DNA from: Sabellastarte sp. h YS-2021 | Lineage: Eukaryota; Annelida; Polychaeta; Sabellida; Sabellidae | Reading direction: 5' to 3' | Length of the DNA stretch: 64,000 bases | Assembly: GCA_964017235.1 (NCBI GenBank) | Contig: OZ024931.1 | Coordinates: 127,111,530-127,175,529, forward strand | In this document: positions 1 through 20,520 of the stretch, one piece after another | Layout: each line of letters opens with the position of its first letter | Numbering within the stretch: the stretch's first letter is position 1 | The notes under the pieces: generated by a model | What the model was told of the DNA's origin: nothing | The model's database searches: none | Seen by the model: only the letters and a program-made list of their open reading frames with translations | Translations under genes and position numbers: made by a program

Positions 1-57
1 TGATTTTCTGACACCTTCCAATCTGAAAGCCTTAAATTTAGGCCAACCCCCCTATTA
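1..57 (+). repeat. Leader block of the 157-bp array, left of the family-A insertion
   Basis: This block (key words ctgacaccttccaatctg and ccttaaatttaggcc) recurs at about 3893-3943, 5552-5610 and 6357-6408, each time leading into the ~157-bp repeats. Here it stops at 57/58 and resumes at 3332, which marks the insertion point of the element between. Confidence 0.8.
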
Positions 58-58
58 T

Positions 59-87
59 TATATCCCCAGACGAAAGTCGGGGATATA
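59..87 (+). repeat. 5' terminal hairpin of family A copy 1
   Basis: Arms TATATCCCC (59-67) and GGGGATATA (79-87) pair over 9 bp. Inside them GAC and GTC add 3 bp around a GAAA loop, with one unpaired A. The tip sequence 60-70 is complementary to 3295-3305 near the 3' end. Confidence 0.8.
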
Positions 88-105
88 TTGGATTCAGGTC
101 CGTCG

Positions 106-119
106 CGCCGCCGCCGCCG
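106..119 (+). repeat. GCC trinucleotide run near the 5' end of family A
   Basis: Four GCC units follow a CGTCGC stretch about 18 bases after the hairpin. Copy 2 has one more unit (8893-8909), so the run varies in length between copies. Family B has a matching run at the same relative place. Confidence 0.8.
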
Positions 120-189
120 TAGAAATTTCCTTGTGGACGCGATAACTCAAAAACAAATTAATATTTTTTTTTCAAACTTGGTACACATG

Positions 190-2090
190 TTAAGGGTGCC
201 CAAAGGAAGATCCCTATTTTAAGGTGACCTTAAACTCCCAGTAAAAAAGAACTTATGGCCACCTTAAGGTCAGAAATTGGACTTTTGGCCACTTAGAGCC
301 CTGTAGGTCACAAACTATGATGCTCAGCTGGCTGAAATTTTACCTGACAACACATTAATATGTTCTTAGTACATGTGCCGAAAATCACGACTTTAAGTTG
401 AGGAGAAAATTGTGTTTGAGGCCCATAAATACCCCCACTTAGGGATTTTTTGCTATACTTTTCACATATTTTGCCCTATAATTTGGAAGTGGCAATTCTG
501 ATGAGTCTCAAACTGCGCCAGGTATAACTTTGATATGTAATCCTTGTCTGTAGAAAATTTTAGGGCTGTAGGTTTACCCAAAGGGGTCGACTTAAGGTCT
601 CAAAAGTGCCCAATTTATGCACTTTTTGCCACTTTCAAGCACTGTAGCTTTCAAACTATGTCTCTCATCTAAGTTAAATATCATCTGGGAATATATCTAT
701 GTGTTTTCTTATATGTGCCCCAACATTTAGGCCTTTAATAGACAGTTAACCTGTGTATCAGGACCATAAACACCCACCCGAGTGACCCTTATAAGACATT
801 TTTCACATCTTTTTCCCTGTAACTTGGAAATGGTAAGTCTGAGAAGTTTCAAACTGTATTAGATATATATTCTGTGTGTAATCTTGGTATGTAACAGATT
901 TTAAGTCTGAAGCTTTAATTTTGAAGGTCAAATTGAGGTCTCTAAAAGGCTCCCAAAGACCCAATATTTGGACTTTTTGCTACTTTTAAGCCCTGTGACT
1001 GTCAAACTATGTGACTGATAGAGCTCAAATCCTATCTGGGAAGATATTAGTATGTTATTTTTATATGTGCCAAAAATTAAGGCTTTAAGAAGACATTTAA
1101 CCTGTGTATGAGGACCATAAATCCCCACCCGAGTGGCCATTTTTAGACATTTTTCACATATTTTTCCCTGTAACTTGGAAATGGTAAGTCTAAGAAGTTT
1201 CAAACTGTATTAGATGCATATTCTATGTGTAATCTTAGTATGTGACAAATTTTAAGTCTGAAGCTTTAATTTGAAGGCCACATTTAGGTCTCTAGAAGGC
1301 CCCATAAAGACCCAGTATTTGGACTTTTTGCCAATTTTAAGGCCTGTGACTGTTAAACTATGTGACTGATAGAGCTGAAATCTCATCTGGGAATACATTA
1401 TTATGTTCTTTTTACATGTGCGAAAAATCAAGGCTTCAAGTAGAAATTTAACCTGTGTATGAGGTCCTTAAACACCCACCTGAGTGACCCTTTTAAGACA
1501 TCTTTCACATATTTTGCTCTGTAACTTGGAAATGGTAAGTCTGAGAAGTTTCAAACTTTATTAGATACATATTCTATGTGTAATCTTAGTATGTAACAAA
1601 TTTTAAGTCTGAAGCTGTAATTTGAAAGGCACATCGAGATCTCTAAAAGGCCCACAGAGACCCAATATTTGGACTTTTTACCACCTTTAAGCCCTGTGAC
1701 TGTTAAACTATGTGATTGATGGAGCTGAAATCCCATCTGGGAATGCATTATTATGTCCTTTTTACATATGCCGAAAATCAAGGTTTTTAGTAGACATTTA
1801 ACCTGTGTATGAGCACCATACACACTCGCCCAAGTGCCTTTTTTGACATTTTTTCCGTATTTTGCCCTGTTATTTGGAAATGCTTAGTGTGACAAGTCTT
1901 AAACTGTATTATATATAATTTTTGTTTGTTATGTATGTCCCCCAAAAAGTTTCAGATCTGTAGTTTAATTGCTAAGGTCTCTTTAACAATTGCAAAATGC
2001 CCACAGAAACCCAATTTATGGACATTATGCCACTTTAAAGCCCAGTAACTGTCAAACTATGTGGCTTATAAAGCTGAAATCTTTGAATTT
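190..2090 (+). repeat. Six diverged ~350-bp tandem repeats inside family A copy 1
   Basis: The word (c/t)aaactatg recurs at 311, 652, 1003, 1354, 1704 and 2053, a spacing of 341-351 bp. Around it recur ggactttttgccac, cctgtgtatgaggacc, cacccacc and taacttggaaatgg. The first and last units are the most diverged. Short reverse-strand reading frames here (for example 928-1203 and 1551-1823) translate the same repeat and are not genes. Confidence 0.85.
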
Positions 2091-2865
2091 TTAAAAGGAA
2101 ATGCCTGTCTATTTAAATTTTGAATATTAATAATGTTATGGCTATCTTAGTCTTTTAAGAACTTATTTTTGTGTGTTATACCTCTGCTTGCTGAGTTTTT
2201 AACTTTTTAAAATGAAACTGGTTAAACATATTCAAGTAGACAAAATGGACACTTTAAGTGAGCTTTAAGTCCCAATATTAATGAAATTATATCCTTATGT
2301 AGTAAAACTAGGGGATTTTTAACCCTCAACTAGCCCAGTTTTATTCAACTTGCCTCAGTTAATTTTGACACAGCTCCTACAGTTATGAACTCATTTCAGT
2401 TGATAATCACATACTTAAAATTCTCAATTCTTTTTGTATTTGAGTACCCCTTTTATATAGATTGTTTGTTTACCATTTATGCTGTAGCAGTCCATCTCTT
2501 TGTAGTCCCAACCCACATCCCCCACCCGGATTCCCCCCACCCACCTCTGGGACCTCCAGCTATATTGAGTGACACTAAATAAACAAAGGTATTTAATGAT
2601 ATCAGATGAGAAACAAAGAACTCAATGGGGTTGCAGATCTTGTGTAATAGTGAGAGAGGTGTGGAGAAGGGGAGAGGGGTGGGGGTGGGAGATGGTGGGC
2701 TTCATTACATATAACACAAAGGGGAGTCAGAACTGAGATTGTATCACATATTTAGGTTGCATATATATGGACCACATATATAGGTATAGAGGAAATGAAT
2801 AACTGAAAACAATTTGCAAATTCTAAAAATAATATAATAAAATAATAATATAAATAATTTTTTTT
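2091..2865. other. Non-repetitive interior of family A copy 1
   Basis: AT-rich DNA with no reading frame I can support. It holds a C-rich stretch at about 2507-2546 with five or more C runs (G-quadruplex potential on the minus strand) and, 120 bp later, the G-rich tract at 2669-2689. Confidence 0.6.
2669..2689 (+). other. Potential G-quadruplex motif
   Basis: Four G runs (GGGG, GGGG, GGGGG, GGG) are separated by AGA, T and T, matching the G3+N1-7 pattern with very short loops. It is kept in copy 2 at 11468-11488. A function is not shown. Confidence 0.6.
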
Positions 2866-3135
2866 TAAATAATATTTTAGTTGTGAACAAACATAGAAAC
2901 AGATATGCGCTTTTGGGATTATGAATTTTAGAATGGACATTGAATCATCAATCATTTAAATACTTTGAAGGAAGATTGAAAAGTATGATGAGTTGAGTTA
3001 AAAATAATATTTTATTTGTCAACAAATATAGAAACAGATATGCTCTTTTGGGATTATTATTTTAGAATGGACATTCAATCATCAATCATTTAAATACTTT
3101 GAAAATAGGTTTAGAGTTATCATTGCAGGAAGATT
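2866..3135 (+). repeat. 135-bp direct duplication near the 3' end of family A copy 1
   Basis: Two adjacent versions begin aataatatttta and contain gaaacagatatg (2896 and 3031), gaatggacatt and atcaatcatttaaatac, about 135 bp apart. Both halves are also in copy 2 (about 11665-11935), so the duplication predates the spread of the element. Confidence 0.75.
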
Positions 3136-3294
3136 GAAAATATAATTTGAGTTATGTATTCGGCGTCTGGGGATACACCATCTTCCTTGGGAAGATATAA
3201 ACAGAGTAGATTGATGTGCTGAAGTTCATATAATAATGGGTAATTATGTTTTACAAAATTCCCGATCAAAACCTGTGGCGTGAGTGATGACCTA

Positions 3295-3331
3295 TCTGGG
3301 GATATGTTGGCGCCGAGTTGGCCCAATCTAG
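3295..3331 (+). repeat. 3' terminus of family A copy 1
   Basis: TCTGGGGATAT (3295-3305) is the exact complement of the 5' tip 60-70. A hairpin follows: TTGG, bulged C, GCC (3307-3314), loop GAGTT, then GGC CCAA (3320-3326). After one T comes CTAG (3328-3331), then host T. Classical Helitron hairpins sit slightly farther from the end. Confidence 0.75.
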
Positions 3332-3332
3332 T

Positions 3333-4788
3333 CTTCTTAGGTATTGCATTTAGAGCTATAAAATGTACTGGGCGGTAATAGGAAACCATATGTGGAGAGT
3401 CTAAATAGCCGGTCAGTTTTACCCCATGGCCCCCCTTACGGGTCAAACTGGGGTCATGAAATAGCTAATTTTGAGTTTTTGCCTTATATCTCCTTTATTG
3501 TTGCTTTTATAGCTTCAGAATGTATTAAGAGGTATTGGGAAAGCATATATGGAGAGTCTAAATAGCCGGTCAGTTTTACCCCCCGACCCCCCCTAATGGG
3601 TCAAACTGGGGTCATAAAATAGCCGATTTTGAGTTTTTGCCTTTATCTCCTTTATTGTTGCTTTTATAGCTTCAGAATATATTAAGAGGTATTGGGAAAG
3701 CATATGTGGAGAGTCTAAATAGCCGGTCAGTTTTACCCCCTGGCCCCCCCTTATGGGTCAGACTGGGGTCATAAAATAGTTGATTTTGAGTTTTTGCCTT
3801 ATATCTCCTTTATTGTTGCTTTTATAGCTTCAGAATGTATTAAGAGGTCTTGGGAAAGCATATATGGAGAGTCTAAATAGCTGGTCAGTTTTTCTGACAC
3901 CTTCCAATCTGAAAGCCTTAAATTTAGGCCAACCCCCCTATTATCTTCTGAAGTATTGCATTTAGAGCTATAAAATGTATTGGGAGGTAATAGGAAACCA
4001 TATGTGGAGAGTCTAAATAGCCGGTCAGTTTTACCCCACGGCCCCCCCTTATGGGTCAAACTGGGGTCATAAAATAGCTGATTTTGAGTTTTTGCCTTAT
4101 ATCTCTCTTATTGTTGCTTTTATAGCTTCAGAATGTATTAAGAGGTATTGGGAAAGCTTATATGGAGAGTCTAAATAGCCGGTCAGTTTTACCCCCCGAC
4201 CCCCCTTATGGGTCAAACTGGGGTCATAAAATAGCCGATTTTGAGTTTTTGCCTTTATCTCCTTTATTGTTGCTTTTATAGCTTCAGAATATATTAAGAG
4301 GTATTGGGAAAGCATATGTGGAGAGTCTAAATAGCCGGTCAGTTTTACCCCCCGACCCCCCCTTATGGACCAAACTGGGGTCATAGATAGCTGCTTTGGA
4401 GTTTTTGCCTTATATCTCCTTTATTGTTGCTTTTATAGCTTCAGAATGTATTAAGAGGTATTGGGAAAACATATGTGGAGAATCTAAATAGCCAGTCAGT
4501 TTTATCCCCCGACCCCCCTTTATGGGTCAAACTGGGGTCATAAAATAGTTGCTTTGGAGTTTTGCCTTATATCTCCTTTATTGTTGCTTTTAGACCTTCA
4601 GAATGTATTAAGAGATATTGGGAAAGCATATGTGGAGAGTCTAAATAGCCGGTCAGTTTTACCCCCCGACCCTCCCATATGGGCCAAACTGGGGTCATAA
4701 ATAGCTGCTTTGGAGTTTTTGCCTTATATCTCCATTATTGTTGCTTTTATAGCTTCAGAATGTATTAAGAGGTATTGGGAAAGCATAC
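3333..4788 (+). repeat. ~157-bp tandem repeat array 1 (about nine units)
   Basis: The word ccggtcag (or a one-base variant) recurs at 3409, 3566, 3722, 3881, 4019, 4179, 4335, 4492 and 4649, mostly 156-160 bp apart. Each unit has a C run of variable length, gggtcaaactggggtcat, gttgcttttatagcttcagaatgtatt and gtggagagtctaaatag. The 3881 unit is short (139 bp) because the leader block restarts inside it. A ~160-bp repeat inside a mobile element recalls bivalve pearl/cvA elements and the BIV160 satellite; the homology is not tested. Confidence 0.85.
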
Positions 4789-4855
4789 GGTGCAGCTTTG
4801 TGCATTCTTAGCTTTACAGCATGCTTATTAAAACCACAAAGCATTTTAAACTTTA

Positions 4856-4894
4856 AGGGACGCTTTGCTTTTGTTAGCAAAAGCATTCCTCTAG
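4856..4894 (+). repeat. 3' terminus of family B copy 1
   Basis: AGGGACGCTT (4856-4865) complements the family B 5' tip at 5197-5206. The hairpin TGCTTTTG / CAAAAGCA (4866-4873 and 4878-4885) with loop TTAG is perfect. Five bases later the element ends in CTAG (4891-4894) next to T, which is the classical Helitron 3' spacing. The ~110 bp from 4788 onward match 7493-7600. Confidence 0.75.
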
Positions 4895-5194
4895 TTATTA
4901 CAGTTTTATAAGAACCACATATAACTTACAGAGATGAAAAAAACAAGGTCTATCTGAAGAATAAATCTCATTGTGGGGATGAATGTCTCATAATCAAAAC
5001 AAATCTCAGTTTTGGTAGTGGTATTTAGTTTTATGTTTAGATATGATTAATACGTAAATACAAATGGTGAAAATGTGTACCTTTTCCCTTTCCACCCCCA
5101 AAATAATAAGTGTGGATTTTTCATATTTCAATCTGCATAACTGCATTTTGAATTCATCTTACAGATAAATATTCCTCTCTTTGTATAATGATAA
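4895..5194. other. Spacer between the two family B copies
   Basis: 300 bp of AT-rich DNA without a gene, repeat or RNA structure that I can recognise. It ends at the host A that precedes copy 2. Confidence 0.5.
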
Positions 5195-5195
5195 T

Positions 5196-5219
5196 TAAGC
5201 GTCCCTGAAAGGGCGCTTA
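5196..5219 (+). repeat. 5' terminal hairpin of family B copy 2
   Basis: TAAGCG (5196-5201) pairs with CGCTTA (5214-5219), and CCCT (5203-5206) with AGGG (5210-5213) around a GAA loop, with T5202 bulged. The shape resembles the family A hairpin although the sequence is unrelated. Confidence 0.75.
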
Positions 5220-5241
5220 TTTGTTTTTGCCTCAGTTTCCT

Positions 5242-5262
5242 CGCCACCGCCGCCGCCGCCGC
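5242..5262 (+). repeat. GCC run near the 5' end of family B
   Basis: GCCACC followed by GCC units, about 22 bases after the hairpin, in the same relative place as the GCC run of family A. Confidence 0.75.
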
Positions 5263-5551
5263 ATTATGGTCTCCCTTGAGTATCTCCCTTATTATTAGAA
5301 GGTTTCAAACCATATTTGGCAGTTATATACCTTAGGCATTGGAAAATGTTTCTGCATGCTTAAATTTGACCTTTGACCTTTATGAAGGTCACATGATCAA
5401 AAACAATTTTTTTAAGTACACCCCCCCCGTCATTGCAGTTCAGGAAAAACTACTTGCTACACAGCCTTATAATTTGACACACCTGTTCATACTATCGAAA
5501 ACGCGAGCTGGTTAGATTTTGGGAGCAATCCCTTGAAAAATGTCTCATTTA
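5263..5551. other. Unique 5' part of family B copy 2
   Basis: No gene seen. It contains a tandem tgacctttgacctt stretch at about 5368-5385 (nuclear-receptor half-site-like words, probably chance) and a C9 run near 5422. Confidence 0.5.
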
Positions 5552-7262
5552 TGGGTGATTTCCTCACACCTTCCAATCTGAGAGCCTTAAATTTAGGTCA
5601 ATCCCCCTATTGTCTTCTTAAGTATTGCATTTAGAGCCATAAAATGTATTGGGAGGTAATAGGAAACCATATGTGGAGAGTCTAAATAGCCGGTCACTTT
5701 TACCCCCCGACCCCCCCCCCCCCTTATGGGTCAAACTGGGGTAATAAAATAGCTCATTTTGAGTTTTTGCCTTATATCTCCTTTATTGTTGCTTTTATAG
5801 CTTTAGAATGTATTAAGAGGTATTGGGAAAGCATATGTGGAGAGTCTAAATAGCCAGTCAGTTTTACCCCCCGACCCCCTCTTATGGGTCAAACTGGGGT
5901 CATAAAATAGCTTATCTTGAGTTTTTGCCTTATATCTCCTTTATTGTTGCTTTTATAGCTTCAGAATGTATTAAGAGGTATTGGGAAAGCATATGTGCAG
6001 AGTCTAAATAGCCGGTCTGTTTTACCCCCCGACCCCCCCCTTATGGGTCAAACTGGGGTCATAAAATAGCTGATTTTGAGTTTTTGCCTTATATCTTCTT
6101 TATTGTTGCTTTTAGACCTTCAAAATGTATTAAGAGGTATTGGGAAAGCATATGTGGATAGTCTAAAAAGCCGGTCAGTTTTATCCCTGATCCCCCTTAT
6201 GGGTCAAACTGGGGTTGTCAAATAGCTGATTTGGAGTTTGCATAGGTCATTACAGTTTTTGCCTTATATCTCCTTTATTGTTGCTTTTATAGCTTCAGAA
6301 TGTATTAAGAGGTATTGGGAAAGCATATGTGGAGAGTCTAAATAGCCGGTCAGTTTTTCTGACACCTTCCAATCTGAAAGCCTTAAATTTAGGCCAACCC
6401 CCCTATTATCTTCTTAAGTATTGCATTTAGAGCTATAAAATGTATTGGGAGGTAATAGGAAACCATATGTGGAGAGTCTAAATAGCCGGTCAGTTTTACC
6501 CCACGGCCCCCCCTTATGGGTCAAACTGGGGTCATAAAATAGCTGATTTTGAGTTTTTGCCTTATATCTCTCTTATTGTTGCTTTTATAGCTTCAGAATG
6601 TATTAAGAGGTATTGGGAAAGCATATGTGGAGAGTCTAAATAGCCAGTCAGTTTTACCCCCCGACCCCCCCCCCCTTATAGGCTAAACTGGGGTCATAAA
6701 TAGCTGCTTTGGAGTTTTTGCCTTATATCTCCTTTATCGTTGCTCTTATAGCTTCAGAATGTATTAAGAGGTATTGGGAAAACATATGTGGAGAATCTAA
6801 ATAGCTGGTCATTTTATCCCCTGATCCCCCCCCCCCATGGGTCAAACTGGCGTCATAAAATAGCTGATTTCGAGTTTCTGTCTTATATCGCCTTCAATGT
6901 TGCTTTTATAGATTGAGAATGTATTAAGAAGTATTGGGAAAGCATATGTGGAGAGTCTAAGTAGCGGGTCAGTTTTACCACTCGACCCCCCCCCCCCTTA
7001 TGGGTCAAGCTGGGGTAAAAATAGCTGTTTTGGAGTTTTTACCTGATATCTCCTTCATTGTTGCTATTATAGCTTCGGAATGTATTAAGAGGTATTGGGA
7101 AACCATATGTGGACAGTCTAAATAGCCGGTTAGTTTTACCTCCTGACCCCCTTGTATGGGTCAAACTGGGGTCATGAAATAGCTTTTGCCTTTATTGTTG
7201 CTTTTATGCTTTCACAATGTATTAAAACCTATTGCAAAACCCTGTGGACAATCTAAATAGCA
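5552..7262 (+). repeat. ~157-bp tandem repeat array 2 (about eleven units)
   Basis: The array opens with the leader block. The ccggtc word or variants recur at 5690, 5853, 6012, 6171, 6346, 6486, 6643, 6805, 6964 and 7126. As in array 1, one unit (6346-6486, 140 bp) holds a second leader block. Units from 6805 on are more diverged. C runs reach 14-15 bases. The last unit fades out near 7262. Confidence 0.85.
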
Positions 7263-7561
7263 ATACATACTTGCACACATGATTATATATGAAGTTATCA
7301 ATACTCGTTACTGAAATGCTTTGTAGCATTTACACAAAATTTACTAAAGTTACATCCAATGTTGTACATCCAATGTACAACACTTTCTCCAGCTTGTCTA
7401 TGTCTACAACCCTTGTTTATGTTAATTAATGAAGACCTTTGTAGGATTTTCCTTGTCATGATATCACTAAGGGTGTTGGTTTATGTAAGAGTACGGTACA
7501 GCTTTGTCCATTCTTAGCTTTACAGCATGCTTATTAAAACCACAAGGCATTTTAAACTCTC

Positions 7562-7600
7562 AGGGACGCTTCGCTTTTGTTAGCAAAAGCATTCATCTAG
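7562..7600 (+). repeat. 3' terminus of family B copy 2
   Basis: AGGGACGCTT (7562-7571), hairpin GCTTTTG / CAAAAGC (7573-7579 and 7584-7590), six bases, CTAG (7597-7600), then host T. It differs from copy 1 by a few substitutions. Confidence 0.75.
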
Positions 7601-8557
7601 TTACCACTTGTATCAGTCAGGTTTTTAATTTGTATGCATGTTTTTATGGTGTGTGGATAATGTCAAGTTATGGACCATGTACTGATTGTTGTATCTTATG
7701 AACACACACGCCACTAATATTAAACATTTTTGTTTTGGACAAAGTTACAAAATGTAAAGAATACTGCAGATACAGTAATGTGTAAAGCTAGGTAAACTTT
7801 TTGTCTATGATTTGCAATTATTGGATCATATTACTGTTTTGACTGGTTTTCAAAAATGTCTAATGTTAATGTCAAGGGTTGAACATGGGTTTAATAAACC
7901 AATACTTCATACTGGATCAATTAGTGAGTCATAAGAATTGAGTTTCATAAATGAACATAGATAAAAAACTTTAGTTTGGACAATGTAGCGGGTTAGTTTT
8001 TTAACAAAATTTTTATTGCAATTATATCTTTTATATTTATGATTTAATTGTTCACAATAAAACGTTATGGAAACTGTATTGGTTTGATTTTAATAACAGA
8101 GCAGTGTCAGCTCCAAAGTGTGGTCATCATTCAGCCTTCGGGTAAAGTATTGGAATTTATAGTACCAACTTTTATACACAGATTGTCTTCACCGCCAGAG
8201 GCTGTTCTGGAACTCATAATAAATAACAGAAAGCATCCTTGGCCTTATGTTTTGAGAAATCTTTGTAATTTATGACCTGCCTTTATGATATGGAAGCATT
8301 TTAAACTTCTTAAGACCTGTAAACTTGTAATTATGATTTCCCAAATAGCCCCCAAGTTCCTGAGGAATCATTTGTATAAATGAGGGGTCCAACACAGGGC
8401 TAATCCAAACACAAGTTGATACATGAATTTGGCAACACATCTTTGCCATACAAACATGCCACTTTTAGGCCTTAGGTAGTGGGAGACAAATACAGAATGG
8501 ACGGAAGATTGACAATGGTGCCAACACATTAAGATTGATTTTAGTAGCAAAATTCCA
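7601..8557. other. AT-rich interval without a recognised gene
   Basis: Probably old host DNA between two mobile elements. The longest reading frame (8048-8275, 75 codons) has no motif I recognise and no convincing splice context. Confidence 0.5.
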
Positions 8558-8751
8558 TTTTATTGCGTTAATACATCCTATCCAATGGACAATTGCTAAT
8601 CCGTTCGGCGCAGACCGGCCCGCCAAACACCAGAAAAAGACGTCCTGTGTTTCCACCGGCTGGCCGGTCCCAGTACTGTGCATTCGCCAGGTGGCGCATG
8701 GTATTTACTTCCTGTCTAGACAACATGACGTCATAGCATCTTTTTCGTTTG
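8558..8751 (+). repeat. Left inverted terminal repeat of DIRS A
   Basis: It is the reverse complement of 14438-14606 apart from scattered mismatches (for example catgacgtcatagc against gctatggcatcatg). The outer 40 bp (8558-8597) match the reverse complement of 14288-14327 exactly. Apparent reading frames on both strands here are products of the repeat. Confidence 0.85.
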
Positions 8752-8845
8752 GCGCGTGTACTGTGCAGACGTGTTTTGAACATCTCCAGAGTTTTTAAAG
8801 AAAAGTGTGCTTTATGACGGATTTTCAACCTTAATTGCAAATAAT

Positions 8846-8874
8846 TATATCCCCAGATGAAAGTCGGGGATATA
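8846..8874 (+). repeat. 5' terminal hairpin of family A copy 2
   Basis: Arms 8846-8854 and 8866-8874 pair perfectly. One C-to-T change at 8858 turns an inner C-G pair into a T-G wobble. Confidence 0.8.
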
Positions 8875-8964
8875 TTGGATTCAGGTCCGTCGCGCCGCCG
8901 CCGCCGCCGTAGAAATTTCCTTGTGGACGTGATAACTCAAAAATAAATTAATATTTTTTTTTCA

Positions 8965-10895
8965 AACTTGGTACACATGTTAAGGGTGCCCAAAGGAAGA
9001 TCCCTATTTTAAGTTGACCTTAAACTCCCAGTAAAAAAGAACTTATGGCCACCTTAAGGTCAGAAATTGGACTTTTGGCCACTTAGAGCCCTGTAGGTCA
9101 CAAACTATGATGCTCAGCTGGCTGAAATTTTACCTGACAACACATTAATATGTTCTTAGTACATGTGCCGAAAATCACGACTTTAAGTTGAGGAGAAAGT
9201 TGTGTTTGAGGCCCATAAATACCCCCACTTAGGGATTTTTTGCTATACTTTTCACATATTTTGCCCTATAATTTGGAAGTGGTAATTCTGATGAGTCTCA
9301 AACTGCGCTAGGTATAACTTTGATATGTAATCCTTGTCTGTAGAAAATTTTAGGGCTGTAGGTTTACCCAAAGGGGTCGACTTAAGGTCTCAAAAGTGCC
9401 CACAGAGACCCAATTTATGCACTTTTTGCCACTTTCAAGCACTGTAGCTTTCAAACTATGTCTCTCATCTAAGTTAAATATCATCTGGGAATATATCTAT
9501 GTGTTTTCTTATATGTGCCCCAACATTTAGGCCTTTAATAGACAGTTAACCTGTGTATCAGGACCATAAACACCCACCCGAGTGACCCTTATAAGACATT
9601 TTTCACATCTTTTTCCCTGTAACTTGAAATGGTAAGTCGGAGAAGTTTCAAACTGTATTAGATGTATATTCTGTGTGTAATCTTAGTATGCAACAGATTT
9701 TAAGTCTGAAGCTTTAATTTTGAAGGTCAAATTGAGGTCTCTAAAAGGCTCCCAAAGACCCAATATTTGGACTTTTTGCTACTTTTAAGCCCTGTGACTG
9801 TCAAACTATGTGACTGATAGAGCTCAAATCCTATCTGGGAAGATATTAGTATGTTATTTTTATATGTGCCAAAAATTAAGGCTTTAAGAAGACATTTAAC
9901 CTGTGTATGAGGACCATAAATCCCCACCCGAGTGACCATTTTTAGACATTTTTCACATATTTTTCCCTGTAACTTGGAAATGGTAAGTCTAAGAAGTTTC
10001 AAACTGTATTAGATGCATATTCTATGTGTAATCTTAGTATGTGACAAATTTTAAGTCTGAAGCTTTAATTTGAAGGCCACATTTAGGTCTCTAGAAGGCC
10101 CCATAAAGACCCAGTATTTGGACTTTTTGCCAATTTTAAGGCCTGTGACTGTTAAACTATGTGACTGATAGAGCTGAAATCTCATCTGGGAATACATTAT
10201 TATGTTCTTTTTACATGTGCGAAAAATCAAGGCTTCAAGTAGACATTTAACCTGTGTATGAGGACCTTAAACACCCACCTGAGTGACCCTTTTAAGACAT
10301 TTTTCACATATTTTGCTCTGTAACTTGGAAATGGTAAGTCTGAGAAGTTTCAAACTTTATTAGATACATATTCTATGTGTAATCTTAGTATGTAATAAAT
10401 TTTAAGTCTGAAGCTTTAATTTGAAAGGCACATCGAGATCTCTAAAAGGCCCACAGAGACCCAATATTTGGACTTTTTACCACCTTTAAGCCCTGTGACT
10501 GTTAAACTATGTCATTGATGGAGCTGAAATCCCATCTGGGAATGCATTATTATGTCCTTTTTACATATGCCGAAAATCAAGGTTTTTAGTAGACATTTAA
10601 CCTGTGTATGAGGGCCATAGACACTCGCCCAAGTGCCTTTTTTGACATTTTTTCCGTATTTTGCCCTGTTATTTGGAAATGCTTAGTGTGACAAGTCTTA
10701 AACTGTATTATATATAATTTTTGTTTGTTATGTATGTCCCCCAAAAAGTTTCAGATCTGTAGTTTAATTGCTAAGGTCTCTTTAACAATTGTAAAATGCC
10801 CACAGAAACCCAATTTATGGACATTATGCCACTTTAAAGCCCAGTAACTGTCAAACTATGTGGGTTATAGAGCTGAAATCTTTGAATTTTTAAAA
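8965..10895 (+). repeat. ~350-bp tandem repeats inside family A copy 2
   Basis: Same six-unit series as in copy 1, with the (c/t)aaactatg word from 9101 to 10852. Units match their counterparts in copy 1 far better than their neighbours, so the array moved as a block without later homogenisation. Confidence 0.85.
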
Positions 10896-11467
10896 GGAAA
10901 TGCCTGTCTATTTAAATTTTGAATATTAATAATGTTATGGCTATCTTAGTCTTTTAAGAACTTATTTTTGTGTGTTATACCTCTGCTTGCTGAGTTTTTA
11001 ACTTTTTAAAATGAAACTGGTTAAACATATTCAAGTAGACAAAATGGACACTTTAAGTGAGCTTTAAGTCCCAATATTAATGAAATTATATCCTTATGTA
11101 GTAAAACTAGGGGATTTTTAACCCTCAACTAGCCCAGTTTTATTCAACTTGCCTCAGTTAATTTTGACACAGCTCCTACAGTTATGAACTCATTTCAGTT
11201 GATAATCACATACTTAAAATTCTCAATTCTTTTTGTATTTGAGTACCCCTTTTATATAGATTGTTTGTTTACCATTTATGCTGTAGCACTCCATCTCTTT
11301 GTAGTCCCAACCCACATCCCCCACCCGGATTCCCCCCACCCACCTCTGGGATCTCCAGCTATATTGAGTGACACTAAATAAACAAAGGTATTTAATGATA
11401 TCAGATGAGAAACAAAGAACTCAATGGGGTTGCAGATCTTGTGTAATAGTGAGAGAGGTGTGGAGAA

Positions 11468-11488
11468 GGGGAGAGGGGTGGGGGTGGG
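11468..11488 (+). other. Potential G-quadruplex motif, copy 2
   Basis: The same four G runs as at 2669-2689, intact, while other positions of the two copies have diverged slightly. Confidence 0.6.
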
Positions 11489-12093
11489 AGGTGGTGGGCT
11501 TCATTACATATAACACAAAGGGGAGTCAGAACTGAGATTGTGTCACATATTTAGGTTGCATATATATGGACCACATATATAGGTATAGAGGAAATGAATA
11601 ACTGAAAACAATTTGCAAATTCTAAAAATAATATAATAAAATAATAATATAAATAATTTTTTTTTAAATAATATTTTATTTGTGAACAAATATAGAAACA
11701 GATATGCGCTTTTGGGATTATGAATTTTAGAATGGACATTGAATCATCAATCATTTAAATACTTTGAAGGAAGATTGAAAAGTATGATGAGTTGAGTTAA
11801 AAATAATATTTTATTTGTCAACAAATATAGAAACAGATATGCTCTTTTGGGATTATTATTTTAGAATGGACATTCAATCATCAATCATTTAAATACTTTG
11901 AAAATAGGTTTAGAGTTATCATTGCAGGAAGATTGAAAATATAATTTGAGTTATGTATTCGGCGTCTGGGGATACACCATCTTCCTTGGGAAGATATAAA
12001 CAGAGTATATTGATGTGCTGAAGTTCATATAATAATGGGTAATTATGTTTTAAAAAATTCCCGATCAAAACCTGTGGCGTGAGTGATGACCTG

Positions 12094-12130
12094 TCTGGGG
12101 ATATGTTGGCGCCGAGTTGGCCCAATCTAG
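12094..12130 (+). repeat. 3' terminus of family A copy 2
   Basis: TCTGGGGATAT (12094-12104), the GC-rich hairpin (12106-12125) and CTAG (12127-12130) are unchanged from copy 1. The flank beyond (ttagagtag) is unrelated to that of copy 1. Confidence 0.8.
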
Positions 12131-14379: not shown

Positions 14380-14437
14380 ACATAAGACCCTCCCACCGAC
14401 CCCGCTATCAGCTAACTAGGGGTCTAATAGGTTTAGA

Positions 14438-14620
14438 CAACGAAAAAGATGCTATGGCATCATGTTGTCTAGACAGGAAGTAAATACCATGCGCCACCTG
14501 GTGAATGCACAGTACTGGGACTGGCCAGCCAGTGGAAACACAGGACGTCTTTTTCTGGTGTTTGGCGGGCCGGTCTGCGCCGACCGGATTAGCAATTGTC
14601 CATTGGATAGGGTATTAACT
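14438..14620 (-). repeat. Right inverted terminal repeat of DIRS A
   Basis: Inverted copy of 8582-8750, ending in gtccattggatagggtatt. Sequence after 14620 departs from the tip predicted by the internal complementary region. Confidence 0.82.
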
Positions 14621-15455: not shown

Positions 15456-17589
15456 ATGTCTCTCCACCAAACGAATAAAGACAAACCGAGAGCTCAGAAA
15501 TGCCGCCACTTTTGTTTCAATTTCGACCTACACAACTACTGCCCTACCTGTAGGGAGGCTGGCAAGGGAGATGACCCCTGTGTCACCTTCGAAACTCCCT
15601 GTGATATCTGTACATCTTTCACAGATGAACAGATGAAGAAAATTCAGCACAGGAAACGTTATCTTAAAAAACAAAAGGCGGAAACTAGTTCCAAAGATGA
15701 TGAACTAGATCTTTTGGGCGAAGGTGATGGAGATTCCTTCACTGGCTCAAATGCAGACCTCGAGAGTGCTGCTGACAATCTTTTTACCTCACCCCCCCCC
15801 CCCCCCCCGTCCTCAGCCTCTTGCCTTCAGTTCTTTATCTTTAAAAACTCCAGCCAAGTCTGTCCCACCCACCCCAGGTACAGCTTTACAAAACAAAATT
15901 CAGAAAAATATTGAAAAATCCCTGGGTGATTCCTTAAATATCCATTTACAGCAACAAATGGGTTCCTTCCAGGCATCCATGTTGGAAGCTTTCCAGTCAC
16001 TTCGAGAGGAGTTGACTACTAAAAAGACAACCGAGGTAGAATCCTCGTTTCCTGCTTCCAAACCTGGTACATCCAGTGATAATGCTGTTAATCTGGACCT
16101 ACCCCCTCCGAGATCTAGTACTAATATGCATACCGAGGCAATGGATGTGGACTACGGTCCAGCACTCCCTCCTCGTCTAGTACTCAACCAAGATACCTCG
16201 GATCAGTACGTTGCTCCCTCTGTAGTACCACCGAAAGAGGTCTCGTACTCTCACAAAAAGCATAGCCATAGGCAGCCAGTTAATCCGAGATCTGCCTCGG
16301 ACCAACTAGATGAGGATTCCGACGAACCTCGGATCCCTTCTTCCAGATCTAAAAAGCACTCTCATAAGAGTAAACACAAGTCTAGGTCCAGATATGTGTC
16401 ATCTTTTTCAGGGGAAGATCAGTCCCCTGCAGCCAGACACAGGTCTTCTAAACCCTCTAGGGCTCAGCCCTCAGGGGCTGCTTCTGATCAAGACCTCCCA
16501 CAACATGATCCAGACGCCCCTTATTATAGGGAAGTAGCTCTGTCTGACATGCCCTCACAATCGCTGAAGAAGTCGACACCTTCAGGCGTATTCTTTCACT
16601 CCCTGACCCCAGGGAATCTATGCCTAGGTCTTCAACTTCAGTGTTGGGTCTGGATGATGAAAAAGGCCATCAAGAGCTCAGACCTAGAGGTCCTTCCTCT
16701 ATTCTGCCACTTAGCTCAGTTATCAAGGACGCCTTTGAGAAATTTCAACATGACTTTAAGGCTGCCAATTTATCTGAGGGCAAATATGTCAAGCCTCCTC
16801 CTTCCACTTCTAAGTGGTACAGGGTGGGACAGCCCACTTTTCAGGATAAAATTCAGGAGTTGAATACAGACTTTGCCAAGATCTGTATTACTCCTAAACC
16901 CTCTGGGGCCCCTGTAGCCAAAGTTCCCCTGCCAGTTCTCAAGGAGCTGGAACATCAGGCTAGACAAAATATCTCAACCCTCAATTTTACCGCTGCCTTT
17001 GCAAAAACTTCGTCTTCTTGCAATGCTTCCCTGGAGAAGTGTCAACATAGCATCAAGTCAACTGTCAAGAAGATTAAGTCTCAGATTCAGAAAGGTGCCA
17101 ATCCTGAGAAAGCAGCAAAGCACGGATATGAGGAAGTCGCTGAGTACATGGATTTCTGGAATAAGACAGTCCTTATTCAACACAGGGCCCTCACCTGTCT
17201 CAGCAAAGCCCATATTGCTCAGGCGCGAAGCCGAAATGACTCTCTTACATCCACAATTAGGGGAAACGAGACGTCAAGAACTTAGGAACTCGTCCTTTTG
17301 GGACCTGTCCTTGTTCGAGTCTCAACTTGTGAAGGAAGGTGAAGACTTCCTTCTCAAAAAAGGCACCTTAAAAGACTCTCAGGGTTTCGCACCGTACCAG
17401 AATAAGCCCTTTCGTGGTCCCCACAAGAAAAGAGGCTCCTACAGGAAACGCCCCTATGGGGGCAATTCCTCTCAAAGCAGTAACCGATCCTTTCCCTCAG
17501 GAAGAGGAAAACCCAACTTCAGAGGCTCCAGGGGTCGTTTTCGACCCCACAATAGGGGAAGGGGGTGTGGAAACCTCCCTTCCCAATGA
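15456..17589 (+). pseudogene. gag: DIRS B gag relic
   Basis: Gag binds element RNA and assembles particles. The start ATG 15456 follows an A-rich context and opens a Cys-rich N-terminus (CRHFCFN, CPTCREAGKGDDPC, CDIC) typical of DIRS-group gag proteins. The frame is lost in a run of 17 C at 15792-15808 and continues in another frame as a Pro/Ser/Lys-rich linker with KKHSHKSKHKSRSR. A second break lies near 16560, before DTFRRILSLPDP, and a third near 17240. The part around 16700-17230 is helical and resembles the DIRS-derived domain of vertebrate LAP2-alpha (family knowledge, not tested). The C-terminus is Arg/Gly-rich (RGSRGRFRPHNRGRG), a likely nucleic-acid-binding tail. Three frameshifts make it non-functional as read. 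Confidence 0.82.
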
Positions 17590-19623
17590 CTCCTCCAAAG
17601 CCTCACTCAGTCCACCAGTAGGAGGTCGCCTCCGTTCTTTCAGGAGAGACTGGCTAACAAACAAATGTTCTCAAAATGTGTTAAACATTATCATCAATGG
17701 CTACGTACTGCCGTTCCTTTCAAAGCTAAACTTGGTCAGATTTCCTCTGATCCTGTCAAAGTACAAGGCCCAGCAAAAAGACCAAGCCTTGGCCACTTGT
17801 ATCCAGTCTCTCCTGTCAAAGAACACAATCGAAAGGGTGGAAAATGTAAAATCTCTCGGGTTTTACAGTCACCTGTTCCTAGTGCCCAAGCCTCACCAAA
17901 GGTGGAGGCCAGTCATAGACCTCAGCAGGCTCAACACTTTTCTACACGTAGAAAAGTTCAAAATGGAAACTCCAGAGTCCATCAGGACCTCCCTGATTCC
18001 AGGGGAGTGGGTATCGTCGATAGATCTGTCGGACGCTTACCTACACATCCCCATCCACCCAAACTCAAGGAAATACCAGTGTTCCAGTTCACCTCCCTCC
18101 CATTCGGACTAGCCACAGCCGCCCAGGTCTTTACAATGATTGTAAAGGAAGTGAAACTAATGGCCCTCTCAAGAGGACTCAGAATTCACCAATACCTGGA
18201 CGACTAGCTGATCAGGTCCCAGTCTCAGGAGGAAGCCCAAGTGAACACTCAGGCGGTGGTAGACCTAACCCAGTCCTTGGGGTGGATAATAAATCAGGAA
18301 AAATCAGAACTGAAACCTACTCAGGTGTTTTCGTTTGTGGGCTACGAGTACCATCTAAATTCAGCCCTTGTAAAACCCACTCAAGAGAGATGGCTCAAAC
18401 TCCAGGATTTGATCCTACTCCTCAAGTCAAAACGTGTTTTGACTGCAAGATGTTTGATGTCGCTAATTGGGTTGCTAGCCTCAACGGAGAAAATGGTCCT
18501 GGAGGGACGCCTTCACATGAGGCCCTTTCAGTTTCATCTCAAGGAGCACTGGAGATATCCTCAGTCACTGGACAACCTCCTTCCTTGGACAGAAGCCATT
18601 GCAGCCCACCTAGATTGGTGGCAAAATCCCTCAAACGTGATGAAAGGTGCAGACCTTCATCCCAAAGACCACAGTATCCAACTCTTTACCGACGCCTCAA
18701 ACGAAGGTTGGGGCGCTCACTTAGATCAAAATTCTACAAGGGGTCTGTGGTCAGATCGGGAAAAAAGGCTACACATAAATGTCCTAGAATTGAAGGCAGT
18801 CTCCCTGGCCCTTCAAGACTTCAAGGACCAGTGCCAGAACCAAACAGTGTTAGTTGCGACAGACAACTCAACAGTGGTAGCCTACATCAACAAACAAGGA
18901 GGAACTCACTCAGCAGAGATGTGTGCTCTCCTGTGGAAGATCATGACCTGGTGCCATCACTACCACATAACATTGAAAGCCAGGCACATCCCAGGGTGCC
19001 TGAATGTGATGGCCGACCTGCTGTCCAGGTCCAACCAAGTGCAGTCAACAGAATGGTCTCTGCATCCGCAGGTGTTCAAACAGATCTGCCAGAAGTGGTT
19101 CACACCTCATGTAGACTTATTTGCCACTCACCTGAACCACAAACTTCCACTGTACGTATCTCCTGTCCCAGACCCAAAGGCTTGGGACATAGATGCTCTA
19201 AACATAAACTGGACGAACCTCACGGCCTATGCTTACCCTCCTACGGCTCTCCTTCACAAGGTGATCCAAAAGATCAAGCAATGCCATTGCCTGATCATCG
19301 TAATAGCCCCAGGCTGGCCAGGGATGCCCTGGTTTTGGGACCTAGTGCAGCTCTCAACAGAGATCCCACTACAACTCCCAGTGTCAACGACCCTACTCAA
19401 ACAGTCCCACAAGTATGTGTTCCACAACAACCCACAACAGCTGAACCTCCACGCCTGGTGTCTAGGAGCGGACAACTTCAAGAACAAGGCTTCTCTGTGG
19501 AGGTGGCAGAGAGAATTACTACTCCTCAGCGGTCATCAACAAGGACCATCTACAAGTCAAAGTGGGCCCTATTTGAAAAATGGTGCAGAGAAAATTCGGT
19601 GGATTTCTCCACTCCATCTGTAA
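17560..19623 (+). pseudogene. DIRS B reverse transcriptase / RNase H / methyltransferase-like relic
   Basis: It follows gag with a short frame overlap. RT motifs are in order: FLVPKPHQRWRPVIDLS, then WVSSIDLSDAYLHIPI with catalytic Asp near 18022. A deletion with frameshift near 18075 removes several codons before FTSLPFGLATA. The active-site YLDD (18193-18204) is followed directly by TAG (18205-18207), where a Trp codon is expected in this family. Downstream the frame stays open to 19623. RNase H residues are complete: Asp 18691-18693, Glu 18787-18789, Asp 18862-18864, Asp 19015-19017. A C-terminal segment (DLFATHLNHKLP, AYAYPPTALL, APGWPGMPWFWDL) matches the position of the Dam-like methyltransferase of DIRS elements; I cannot confirm activity. 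Two lesions in RT, none in RNase H. Confidence 0.88.
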
Positions 19624-20520
19624 AACAAATCTCAGATTTTTTCATGTACCTGTACCAAGACCTAAATAGGCGCCCCTCGACCATTGATGGTTACAGGACT
19701 GCAATCGTTGACACTTTGGGCCCAACGGCCCACCATATTGCACATAATGCAACCTTTCTGTTGTCCTCAACGAGCTCACAAAAGCACCATTTGAGCCCAT
19801 GAAAGACACAGACCTCAAACATCTTACTCTCAAAACTGCCTTTTTGCTAGCTTTGGCCTCCGGCAAACGCCGTAGCGAAATCCATGCCTGGGTCGCAAAC
19901 AAAGTATCTAATATAGGCCAATGGGAAAAGGTTGCCTTGTTCCCTTCTTCTGATTTCATAGCCAAAAACCAACTAGCAAGAGAAGGTTCTCAAAGTGTGT
20001 CTCCGGTGACTATTCCTGCTTTGACTACCATTGTAGATAGACAATTTAAAGAACACAGGACCCTGTGTCCGGTACGGGCCCTGAGGTATTATCTGGACCG
20101 AACCAAAGACCTGAGAGGGTCTCGTTCCCTCCTTTTTATCTCCTTCAAGAACGGACATACCTCAGACATCAGACCCGCTACTCTCTCTTCCTGGTTGAAA
20201 CAAACCATCTACTTTGTTACAAACAAGCAGACCAACAAGCCTTGGACTTGGTCCAAGTTAAAGCGCATGACATCCGGGCCTTCGTGGCCTCTAAGGCCTT
20301 TTACGGTGGGGTATCGGTGGACCAAATCATGCAAGCCTGTCACTGGAAAGCTCACAACACATTTACAAATGTTTACCTAAAAGACCTTACTTGGTCGGAC
20401 ACCGACAACAATATGTATCTGGGACCCATAGTGGCGGCACAACAAGTCCTAGATCCTTCCCCTCAGACCAGTTGTCCTCGGAAAGAAAAAAAGGGGGGGG
20501 GGCACATCCGCTACAACTAA
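19465..20520 (+). pseudogene. DIRS B tyrosine recombinase relic
   Basis: It begins in a different frame inside the RT gene end, as usual for DIRS elements: GFSVEVAERITT, then KSKWALFEKWC and DGYRTAIVDTLGP form the N-terminal core-binding part, ending at 19802. A break near 19750 moves the frame to the catalytic domain, LALASGKRRSEIHAW (first Arg) and CPVRALRYYLDR. A one-base shift near 20215 moves it again to HDIRAF (His-x-x-Arg), ACHW and FTNVYLKD with the catalytic Tyr at 20374-20376. All catalytic residues survive, but three frames are needed. The gene ends at 20520, after an A7-G10-type tract near 20485-20502. Confidence 0.86.

Follow-up and report, generated by a model that had tools for sequence, protein, structure and literature searches.

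Two sequence-unrelated transposon families in a Sabellastarte genome share a terminal plan of the Helitron2/HINE kind

Results

Layout of families A and B

We analyzed a 64,000-nucleotide stretch of the genome of the annelid Sabellastarte sp. h YS-2021 (contig OZ024931.1, positions 127,111,530 to 127,175,529, called the window below), whose first 12,130 nucleotides hold copies of two repeat families, A and B. An earlier note on this DNA had described one terminal plan in both families and proposed it as the basis of a group to be defined. The common plan was found in A and B and holds genome-wide by counts: a TT start, a bulged 5' hairpin, a GCC run, a tandem array, a complement of the 5' tip, a 3' hairpin and a final CTAG. 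As argued below, A and B are very probably non-autonomous rolling-circle transposons of the Helitron2/Helentron type (HINEs). The features of the two families are as follows, the terminal repeats being named subterminal inverted repeats (subTIRs) or asymmetric terminal inverted repeats (ATIRs).

1..57, plus strand: part of B1 left of A1 (55 nt at 4-58 identical to a B repeat unit); the element begins beyond the left edge of the window, in stretch L001
58..3331, plus strand: A1, complete family A copy of 3274 nt within a B element (BLAST; junctions compared with uninterrupted B repeats)
59..87, plus strand: A1 5' hairpin with bulged A and GAAA loop, 5' subTIR/ATIR at 60-70 (DNA fold, -9.7 kcal/mol)
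107..118, plus strand: A1 GCC run, a HINE-type microsatellite module (the window has three (GCC)4+ runs in all)
609..1915, plus strand: A1 central tandem array, 351-bp unit, 3.7 copies (repeat period)
3166..3196, plus strand: internal second tip complement and 7-bp hairpin in the A right module, a possible relict 3' end, kept exactly in 16 of 17 aligned A copies
3295..3305, plus strand: A1 3' subTIR/ATIR, exact complement of 60-70
3307..3326, plus strand: A1 3' hairpin, 7 bp with one bulge (DNA fold)
3328..3331, plus strand: A1 CTAG 3' terminus, followed by host T
3332..4894, plus strand: part of B1 right of A1, with 3' subTIR (4856-4865), hairpin and CTAG
5195..7600, plus strand: B2, complete family B copy of 2406 nt
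5197..5218, plus strand: B2 5' hairpin with bulged T and GAA loop, 5' subTIR at 5197-5206 (DNA fold)
5249..5260, plus strand: B2 GCC run
5643..7184, plus strand: B2 central tandem array, 158-bp unit, 9.7 copies
7562..7571, plus strand: B2 3' subTIR, exact complement of 5197-5206
7573..7590, plus strand: B2 3' hairpin, 7 bp with TTAG loop (DNA fold)
7597..7600, plus strand: B2 CTAG 3' terminus, followed by host T
8845..12130, plus strand: A2, complete family A copy of 3286 nt
8846..8874, 8894..8908 and 9142..10710, plus strand: hairpin, GCC run and array of A2
12094..12104, 12106..12125 and 12127..12130, plus strand: 3' subTIR, hairpin and CTAG of A2

B1 is a B element split by A1, its 5' tip being read in stretch L001 and its 3' end lying at 4894. 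A1 and A2 are 98.99% identical. The two families are unrelated in sequence, as had been claimed, with no mutual BLAST match at the cut-offs used. DNA folding reproduced the bulged 5' hairpins with their GAAA and GAA loops: 12 bp with a single bulged A in family A and 10 bp with a single bulged T in family B. The pairings between tip and complement are exact over 11 nt in A (60-70 with 3295-3305) and over 10 nt in B (5197-5206 with 7562-7571). In both families, the complement sits one base ahead of the 3' hairpin, and its match to the tip includes the base left bulged when the tip folds on itself. Runs of (GCC)4+ occur at three sites of the window, each 19-30 nt past a 5' hairpin, and none was found on the minus strand of the 64 kb. 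The repeat period of the central array is 351 bp in A and 157-158 bp in B, and a host T follows CTAG at all four 3' ends of the window, A1 being followed by TC and not TT.

In the right part of A, the internal tip complement with its 7-bp hairpin stands about 130 nt ahead of the real one (3166-3196 and 11965-11995), and the 17th aligned copy also matches when up to 3 errors are allowed. It may be an old, bypassed 3' end, though no CTAG comes after it. Separately, stretch L025 (~3326-3348) carries an A-type 3' hairpin and CTAG with no A tip complement in front, which probably comes from a related family. In family B, the segment joining the 5' module to the array recurs inside the arrays (3890-3973 and 6355-6438), so the arrays have a higher-order duplication.

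Conservation of the plan in the genome

We scanned both strands of the 64 kb for structure only, i.e. a tip forming its own hairpin, a 10-nt complement ahead of a second hairpin, and CTAGT, with limits taken from the description in the earlier note. The scan returned A1, A2 and B2 alone, and gave 0 matches in ten 64-kb sequences simulated with a first-order Markov model, of which one strand each was scanned. The whole genome (1,785,957,881 bases in 647 contigs; 1.79 Gb) was then searched with patterns of each family. There are 6,905 exact matches to the A tip and 7,227 to the A 3' end with one loop base left free; 6,964 of the latter have the exact tip complement ahead and G as that loop base; the remaining 263 A-type 3' ends fail this longer pattern. 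For family B, the exact 3' hairpin was counted 2,715 times, with the exact tip complement, GGGACGCTT, ahead of 1,627. The end of the A hairpin followed by GCCGCCGCC at the expected offset occurs 6,632 times, and GCCGCCGCC stands at that offset in 90 of 98 listed A tips (two of the 100 listed were excluded, being beyond the second listing). Reversed-pattern controls for the A, B, GCC-offset and C-tip patterns (family C is described below) gave 0 each. A chance origin of the shared plan was rejected on the basis of the structure scan and of these genome counts with their zero controls.

We also fetched individual copies, namely the best matches of each search (22 A 5' ends and 21 B 5' ends), which lean young and complete because they were chosen in this way. 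Stretches L002-L008 were left out of the counts because they cover the loci of L009-L015; of 23 B matches, two belong to family C and were excluded, and the A copy inside stretch L067 stands outside the 22. The 3' end is present in 15/22 A and 18/21 B copies; in the other 7 and 3, respectively, the stretch stops or another insertion interrupts the copy. All 15 A 3' ends have the exact complement, CTAG and host TT, and all 22 A copies have (GCC)3 after the tip. Among the 18 B 3' ends, the complement is exact in 12 and has one mismatch in 6, with CTAG in 16 and host TT in 18; (GCC)3 or longer follows the B tip in 14/21 copies and (GCC)2 in 20/21. Both the tip complement and the GCC run are therefore kept in most copies, contrary to the absence that the earlier note had named as a refutation.

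The sampled A copies, being best matches, differ by 0.3-0.9% from their common sequence, indicating that family A has been active recently. Among the matches listed, 93 A tips lie on C1 up to 26.18 Mb: a same-strand 3' end follows 2.9-3.7 kb on in 61, nearer in 5, at 3.7-16 kb in 19 and farther in 8.

Insertion site and junctions

The 5' end begins with TT in 22/22 A and 21/21 B copies, and never with TC. Before this TT, T at -3 together with A at -1 was found in 19/22 A and 20/21 B copies, whereas in the window 7.8% of all T and 9.3% of all TT have these bases in front. Both junctions could be seen for two A insertions, A1 and the copy in L067, each in B repeats at CCTATTA^TC. For A1, the junctions are TATTA/TTATAT...CTAG/TCTTC, to be compared with CCTATTATCTTC in uninterrupted B repeats. 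These two insertions show at most a one-base T duplication, the alternative being insertion at A^T without duplication. The left junction alone was seen for A in A (L015, ATATAA^TTTGAG) and for C in A (L024, TATATAA^TTTTTG). Overall, A, in the two copies with both junctions, inserts without duplication beyond a possible single T, and the target of A and B is TNAT/T.

A1 (57-58 / 3331-3332) and the A copy of L067 occupy the identical position, to the nucleotide, in two B copies, which may point to an insertion hotspot in the B repeat. A mobile composite of B carrying A was considered and rejected. A1 and the L067 copy are 98.63% identical, while A1 is 98.56-99.18% identical to 16 other aligned A copies; the two share one non-consensus base, which is also present in three other aligned copies. 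Since they are not closest relatives and the shared base recurs in other copies, two independent insertions are likelier than a transposed composite.

Predicted stability of the two tip pairings

Pairing of the tip with the 3' complement has a predicted energy of -12.7 kcal/mol in A and -13.3 kcal/mol in B, compared with -9.3 kcal/mol (A) and -7.5 kcal/mol (B) for the 5' hairpin alone. The prediction thus favours the perfect duplex, and the 5' hairpin would open once the 3' complement is exposed. Together with the pairing of the bulged base, these modelled energies fit the switch model published for Helitron2 (see Discussion).

Families C, D and E

Three further families, C, D and E, were found as nested insertions in A copies and have the 5' half of the plan. 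Their 5' hairpins (perfect in C, with a G-T pair in D, bulged in E) are followed by a GC-rich or GTGC-type short repeat. C and D share a 169-bp satellite (77%) and C and E a 133-bp satellite (~91%), while their 5' ends differ; by analogy, this sharing would correspond to the module swapping reported in oyster. The C tip, with the loop left free, occurs 6,901 times in the genome. Among 100 listed C tips, the loop is of GCAA type in 83 (GCAA itself in 71), while the other 17 carry its reverse complement, TTGC/TTGT; the sequence downstream is the same for both orientations (also in L024, L065 and L074). The tips may fall into two subfamilies, or the palindrome may invert in a flip-flop-like manner, as at parvovirus ends.

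We searched for the 3' ends predicted for D and E, i.e. the tip complement, 8-38 nt and CTAGT, a search that would miss a mismatched 3' repeat or a longer spacing. For D, 127 matches against 12 in the reversed control gave no recurrent 3' end, nearly all matches with letters shown corresponding to the 5' tip continued outward into differing host sequence. For E, 80 matches against 0 in the reversed control had lengths of 25-55, with no evident preferred length. Since this search yielded no recurrent CTAG 3' end for D or E, either CTAG is not universal here or the D and E repeats are imperfect or differently spaced.

Loops of the GNA type are unusually stable in DNA. A general loop of this type at the tips was rejected: GAAA in A, GAA in B, GCAA/TTGC in C and GAA in the Fusarium elements discussed below would suit it, but D has CTG and E has TTTA.

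Candidate partners and other repeats of the window

Searching the genome for the Rep domain PF14214 (Helitron_like_N) gave 24 matches, with open frames of up to 2,245 amino acids; none lies in the 64-kb window. Long A intervals were rejected as autonomous elements, no PF14214 match lying within the 19 intervals of 3.7-16 kb among the listed C1 tips.

Two other regions of the window were noted. Overlapping open frames at 15724-20380, with PF00078 below the cut-off and PF17917 and PF13456 above it (reverse transcriptase, RNase H), are probably a decayed retroelement. By eye, a stretch with GGCGCAGACCGGCC and TCCAATGGACAATTGC at ~8577-8760 recurs inverted at 14430-14610 and is probably another repeat family.

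Discussion

In Helitron2 as described by Bao and Jurka (2013, PMC3627910), the short inverted repeats are asymmetric: the 5' copy, folded in the 5' hairpin, lies 0-2 bp from its end, and the 3' copy, which precedes a hairpin, lies 20-30 bp from the other. Their pairing was suggested to destroy the 5' hairpin and to set the end of replication (PMC3627910). A and B agree with this description in the 5' T, the ATIR at the 5' hairpin, the second ATIR just ahead of the 3' hairpin and the pairing model, but the Chlamydomonas examples insert after TTTT, whereas A and B insert at TNAT/T and end in CTAG (PMC3627910).

The remaining parts of the plan are those of DINE-1 and HINE elements, and the likeness to them drawn by the earlier note is right, their layout having been published in 2008, 2014 and 2020. 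In DINE-1, the subTIRs are 13 bp long, the 5' subTIR is flanked by a partial inverted repeat, the microsatellite is of GTCY type, the central repeats vary, and the 3' subTIR is followed by a stem-loop; one Drosophila species has three types that differ in subTIRs and central repeats (Yang and Barbash, PMC2374699). A similar layout was described for Helentrons and HINEs (Thomas et al., PMC4067079), for 11 oyster HINEs (Vojvoda Zeljko et al., PMC7492417) and for Calliphora elements (PMC3630058). The elements of Drosophila, mite and oyster thus share with A and B the subTIR, the adjacent partial inverted repeat, the microsatellite, the central repeats and the 3' subTIR with its stem-loop, and, as here, several unrelated families occur per genome, with central repeats shared or swapped (PMC2374699, PMC4067079, PMC7492417). 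They differ in that their microsatellite is mostly GTCY (3-units are also reported) instead of GCC, and in that their target is oligo-T, while A and B insert at A^T(T) and end in CTAG.

Taken together, A and B have a 5' tip ATIR that forms the 5' hairpin, a second ATIR/subTIR directly upstream of the 3' hairpin (26-29 nt inside the 3' end, where 20-60 nt is expected of Helitron2/HINE), a microsatellite near the 5' end with central tandem repeats, and a T-rich/TT target, but with TNA on the left side, giving A^TT. We therefore regard them with high confidence as non-autonomous rolling-circle elements of the Helitron2/Helentron type. We found no earlier naming of A or B in the literature, a weak negative given that sequence strings were only partly searched; the two are new families of the already defined Helitron2/HINE kind.

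Several points weigh against this assignment. The target is A^T(T) and not the oligo-T usual for animal Helentrons, and both A insertions with two readable junctions are followed by TC, at odds with a TT target. The CTAG end is typical of Helitron1, and within the main texts of PMC4067079, PMC7492417, PMC2374699 and PMC5148889, the parts searched, CTAG appears only for the proto-Helentron. The energy comparison leaves aside the distance between the ends and the binding of proteins. None of the 24 Rep matches was tied to A or B ends, the neighbourhood being checked by position at one locus: within 200 kb of C1:19.24 Mb there is no exact match to the tip or the 3' end of A, to the 3' hairpin of B or to the tip of C (B 5' tips were not searched). 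Finally, no empty site was obtained for B.

Three other explanations were weighed. The earlier note had taken the tip complement and the GCC run as marks of a new group, which would be moved by one enzyme reading the hairpin and complement structure alone. Plan, CTAG end and target are indeed common to A and B in spite of their unrelated sequences, and C has the same 5' plan with a TAAT/T left junction; a single structure-reading machinery may move both A and B. The Helentron-HINE pairs described from Culex and Drosophila are >95% and >98% identical, respectively (PMC4067079). Nevertheless, these marks are already known as the 3' ATIR/subTIR and as the microsatellite module of HINEs (PMC3627910, PMC4067079, PMC7492417, PMC2374699); because they were published between 2008 and 2014, the proposed group is not new. 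In addition, the predicted 3' ends of D and E, with complement and CTAGT, were not found, and the families may differ in their ends. We consider a real new group, with one such enzyme for all these families, unlikely.

Canonical Helitron1 elements would account for CTAG as a CTRR end, for the hairpin near it and for the A^T target, the CTAG/T and A/T junctions being as in Helraiser (PMC4778049). In this canonical Helitron, the 3' hairpin acts as a terminator, CTAG is joined to T, and the hairpin can be bypassed to give new ends (PMC4778049). However, the 5' ends of A and B are TT and not TC, and the sampled copies have the 5' hairpin with ATIR, a feature that separates Helitron2 (PMC3627910); the probability that A and B are Helitron1 is accordingly very low.

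Least probable of all, to the point that we give it almost no weight, are miniature inverted-repeat transposable elements (MITEs) that carry subterminal inverted repeats and derive from a cut-and-paste (DDE) transposon: A and B are short, non-coding and abundant with short inverted repeats, DINE-1 and pearl elements were formerly filed so (PMC2374699, PMC7492417), and the missing empty site of B leaves this reading some room, but the repeats are asymmetric (at the tip 5', 26-29 nt inside 3'), the two ends differ (TT versus CTAG), and neither terminal inverted repeats nor a fixed duplication were found (at most one T in the two A insertions with both junctions, the duplication being scored for A).

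Under the Helitron2/HINE assignment, a Rep-helicase encoded elsewhere in the genome and acting in trans would nick at the TT start, peel off one strand and stop at the 3' hairpin and CTAG. The single-stranded 5' tip could then either fold on itself with one bulge or form a perfect duplex with the complement next to the 3' hairpin. In the model of Bao and Jurka, the exposed 3' complement would open the 5' hairpin, join both ends and mark the end point. The GCC run and the tandem array would be HINE passenger modules that the enzyme need not recognize.

Two further published systems share features of the ends and target with A and B. The proto-Helentron-Pi of Phytophthora has a 5' TT, a 3' CTAG and insertion between A and T (PMC4067079), all of which A and B share. 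It differs from them in encoding Rep/helicase, in its size of ~14 kb and in a structure nearer to Helitron than to Helentron (PMC4067079); relative to it, A and B add the 5' hairpin, the ATIR and the HINE modules. FoHeli1/2 of Fusarium insert at TNAT/T and have an ATIR upstream of the 3' end, as in A and B, and GAA between the arms of the 5' hairpin, as in B, but they end in ATTTT, have the 3' ATIR within a hairpin of its own, and are 5-6 kb long with transposase genes (PMC5148889).

A tentative reading, which we hold to be less probable than its negation, is that A and B (and C, by its left junction) are animal descendants of a proto-Helentron stage, having the full Helitron2 tip switch and still the CTAG/T end and A^T target. 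If true, the change of ends from Helitron1 to Helentron would be preserved in one living genome, in recent copies, with families on both sides of the change (A and B with CTAG, D and E apparently without). The combination of TT...CTAG and A^T in an animal HINE may be informative on this step, its single features being known.

Overall, the shared plan is neither a coincidence nor a new group but the Helitron2/HINE plan, and the whole-genome counts bear it out. No bench test of the tip-switch model was found in the literature consulted on Helitron2/HINE. The recent activity of family A makes it a good substrate for testing tip-switch termination in Helitron2, and the bulge, which in both families weakens the 5' hairpin and not the duplex of tip and complement, offers a testable hint.

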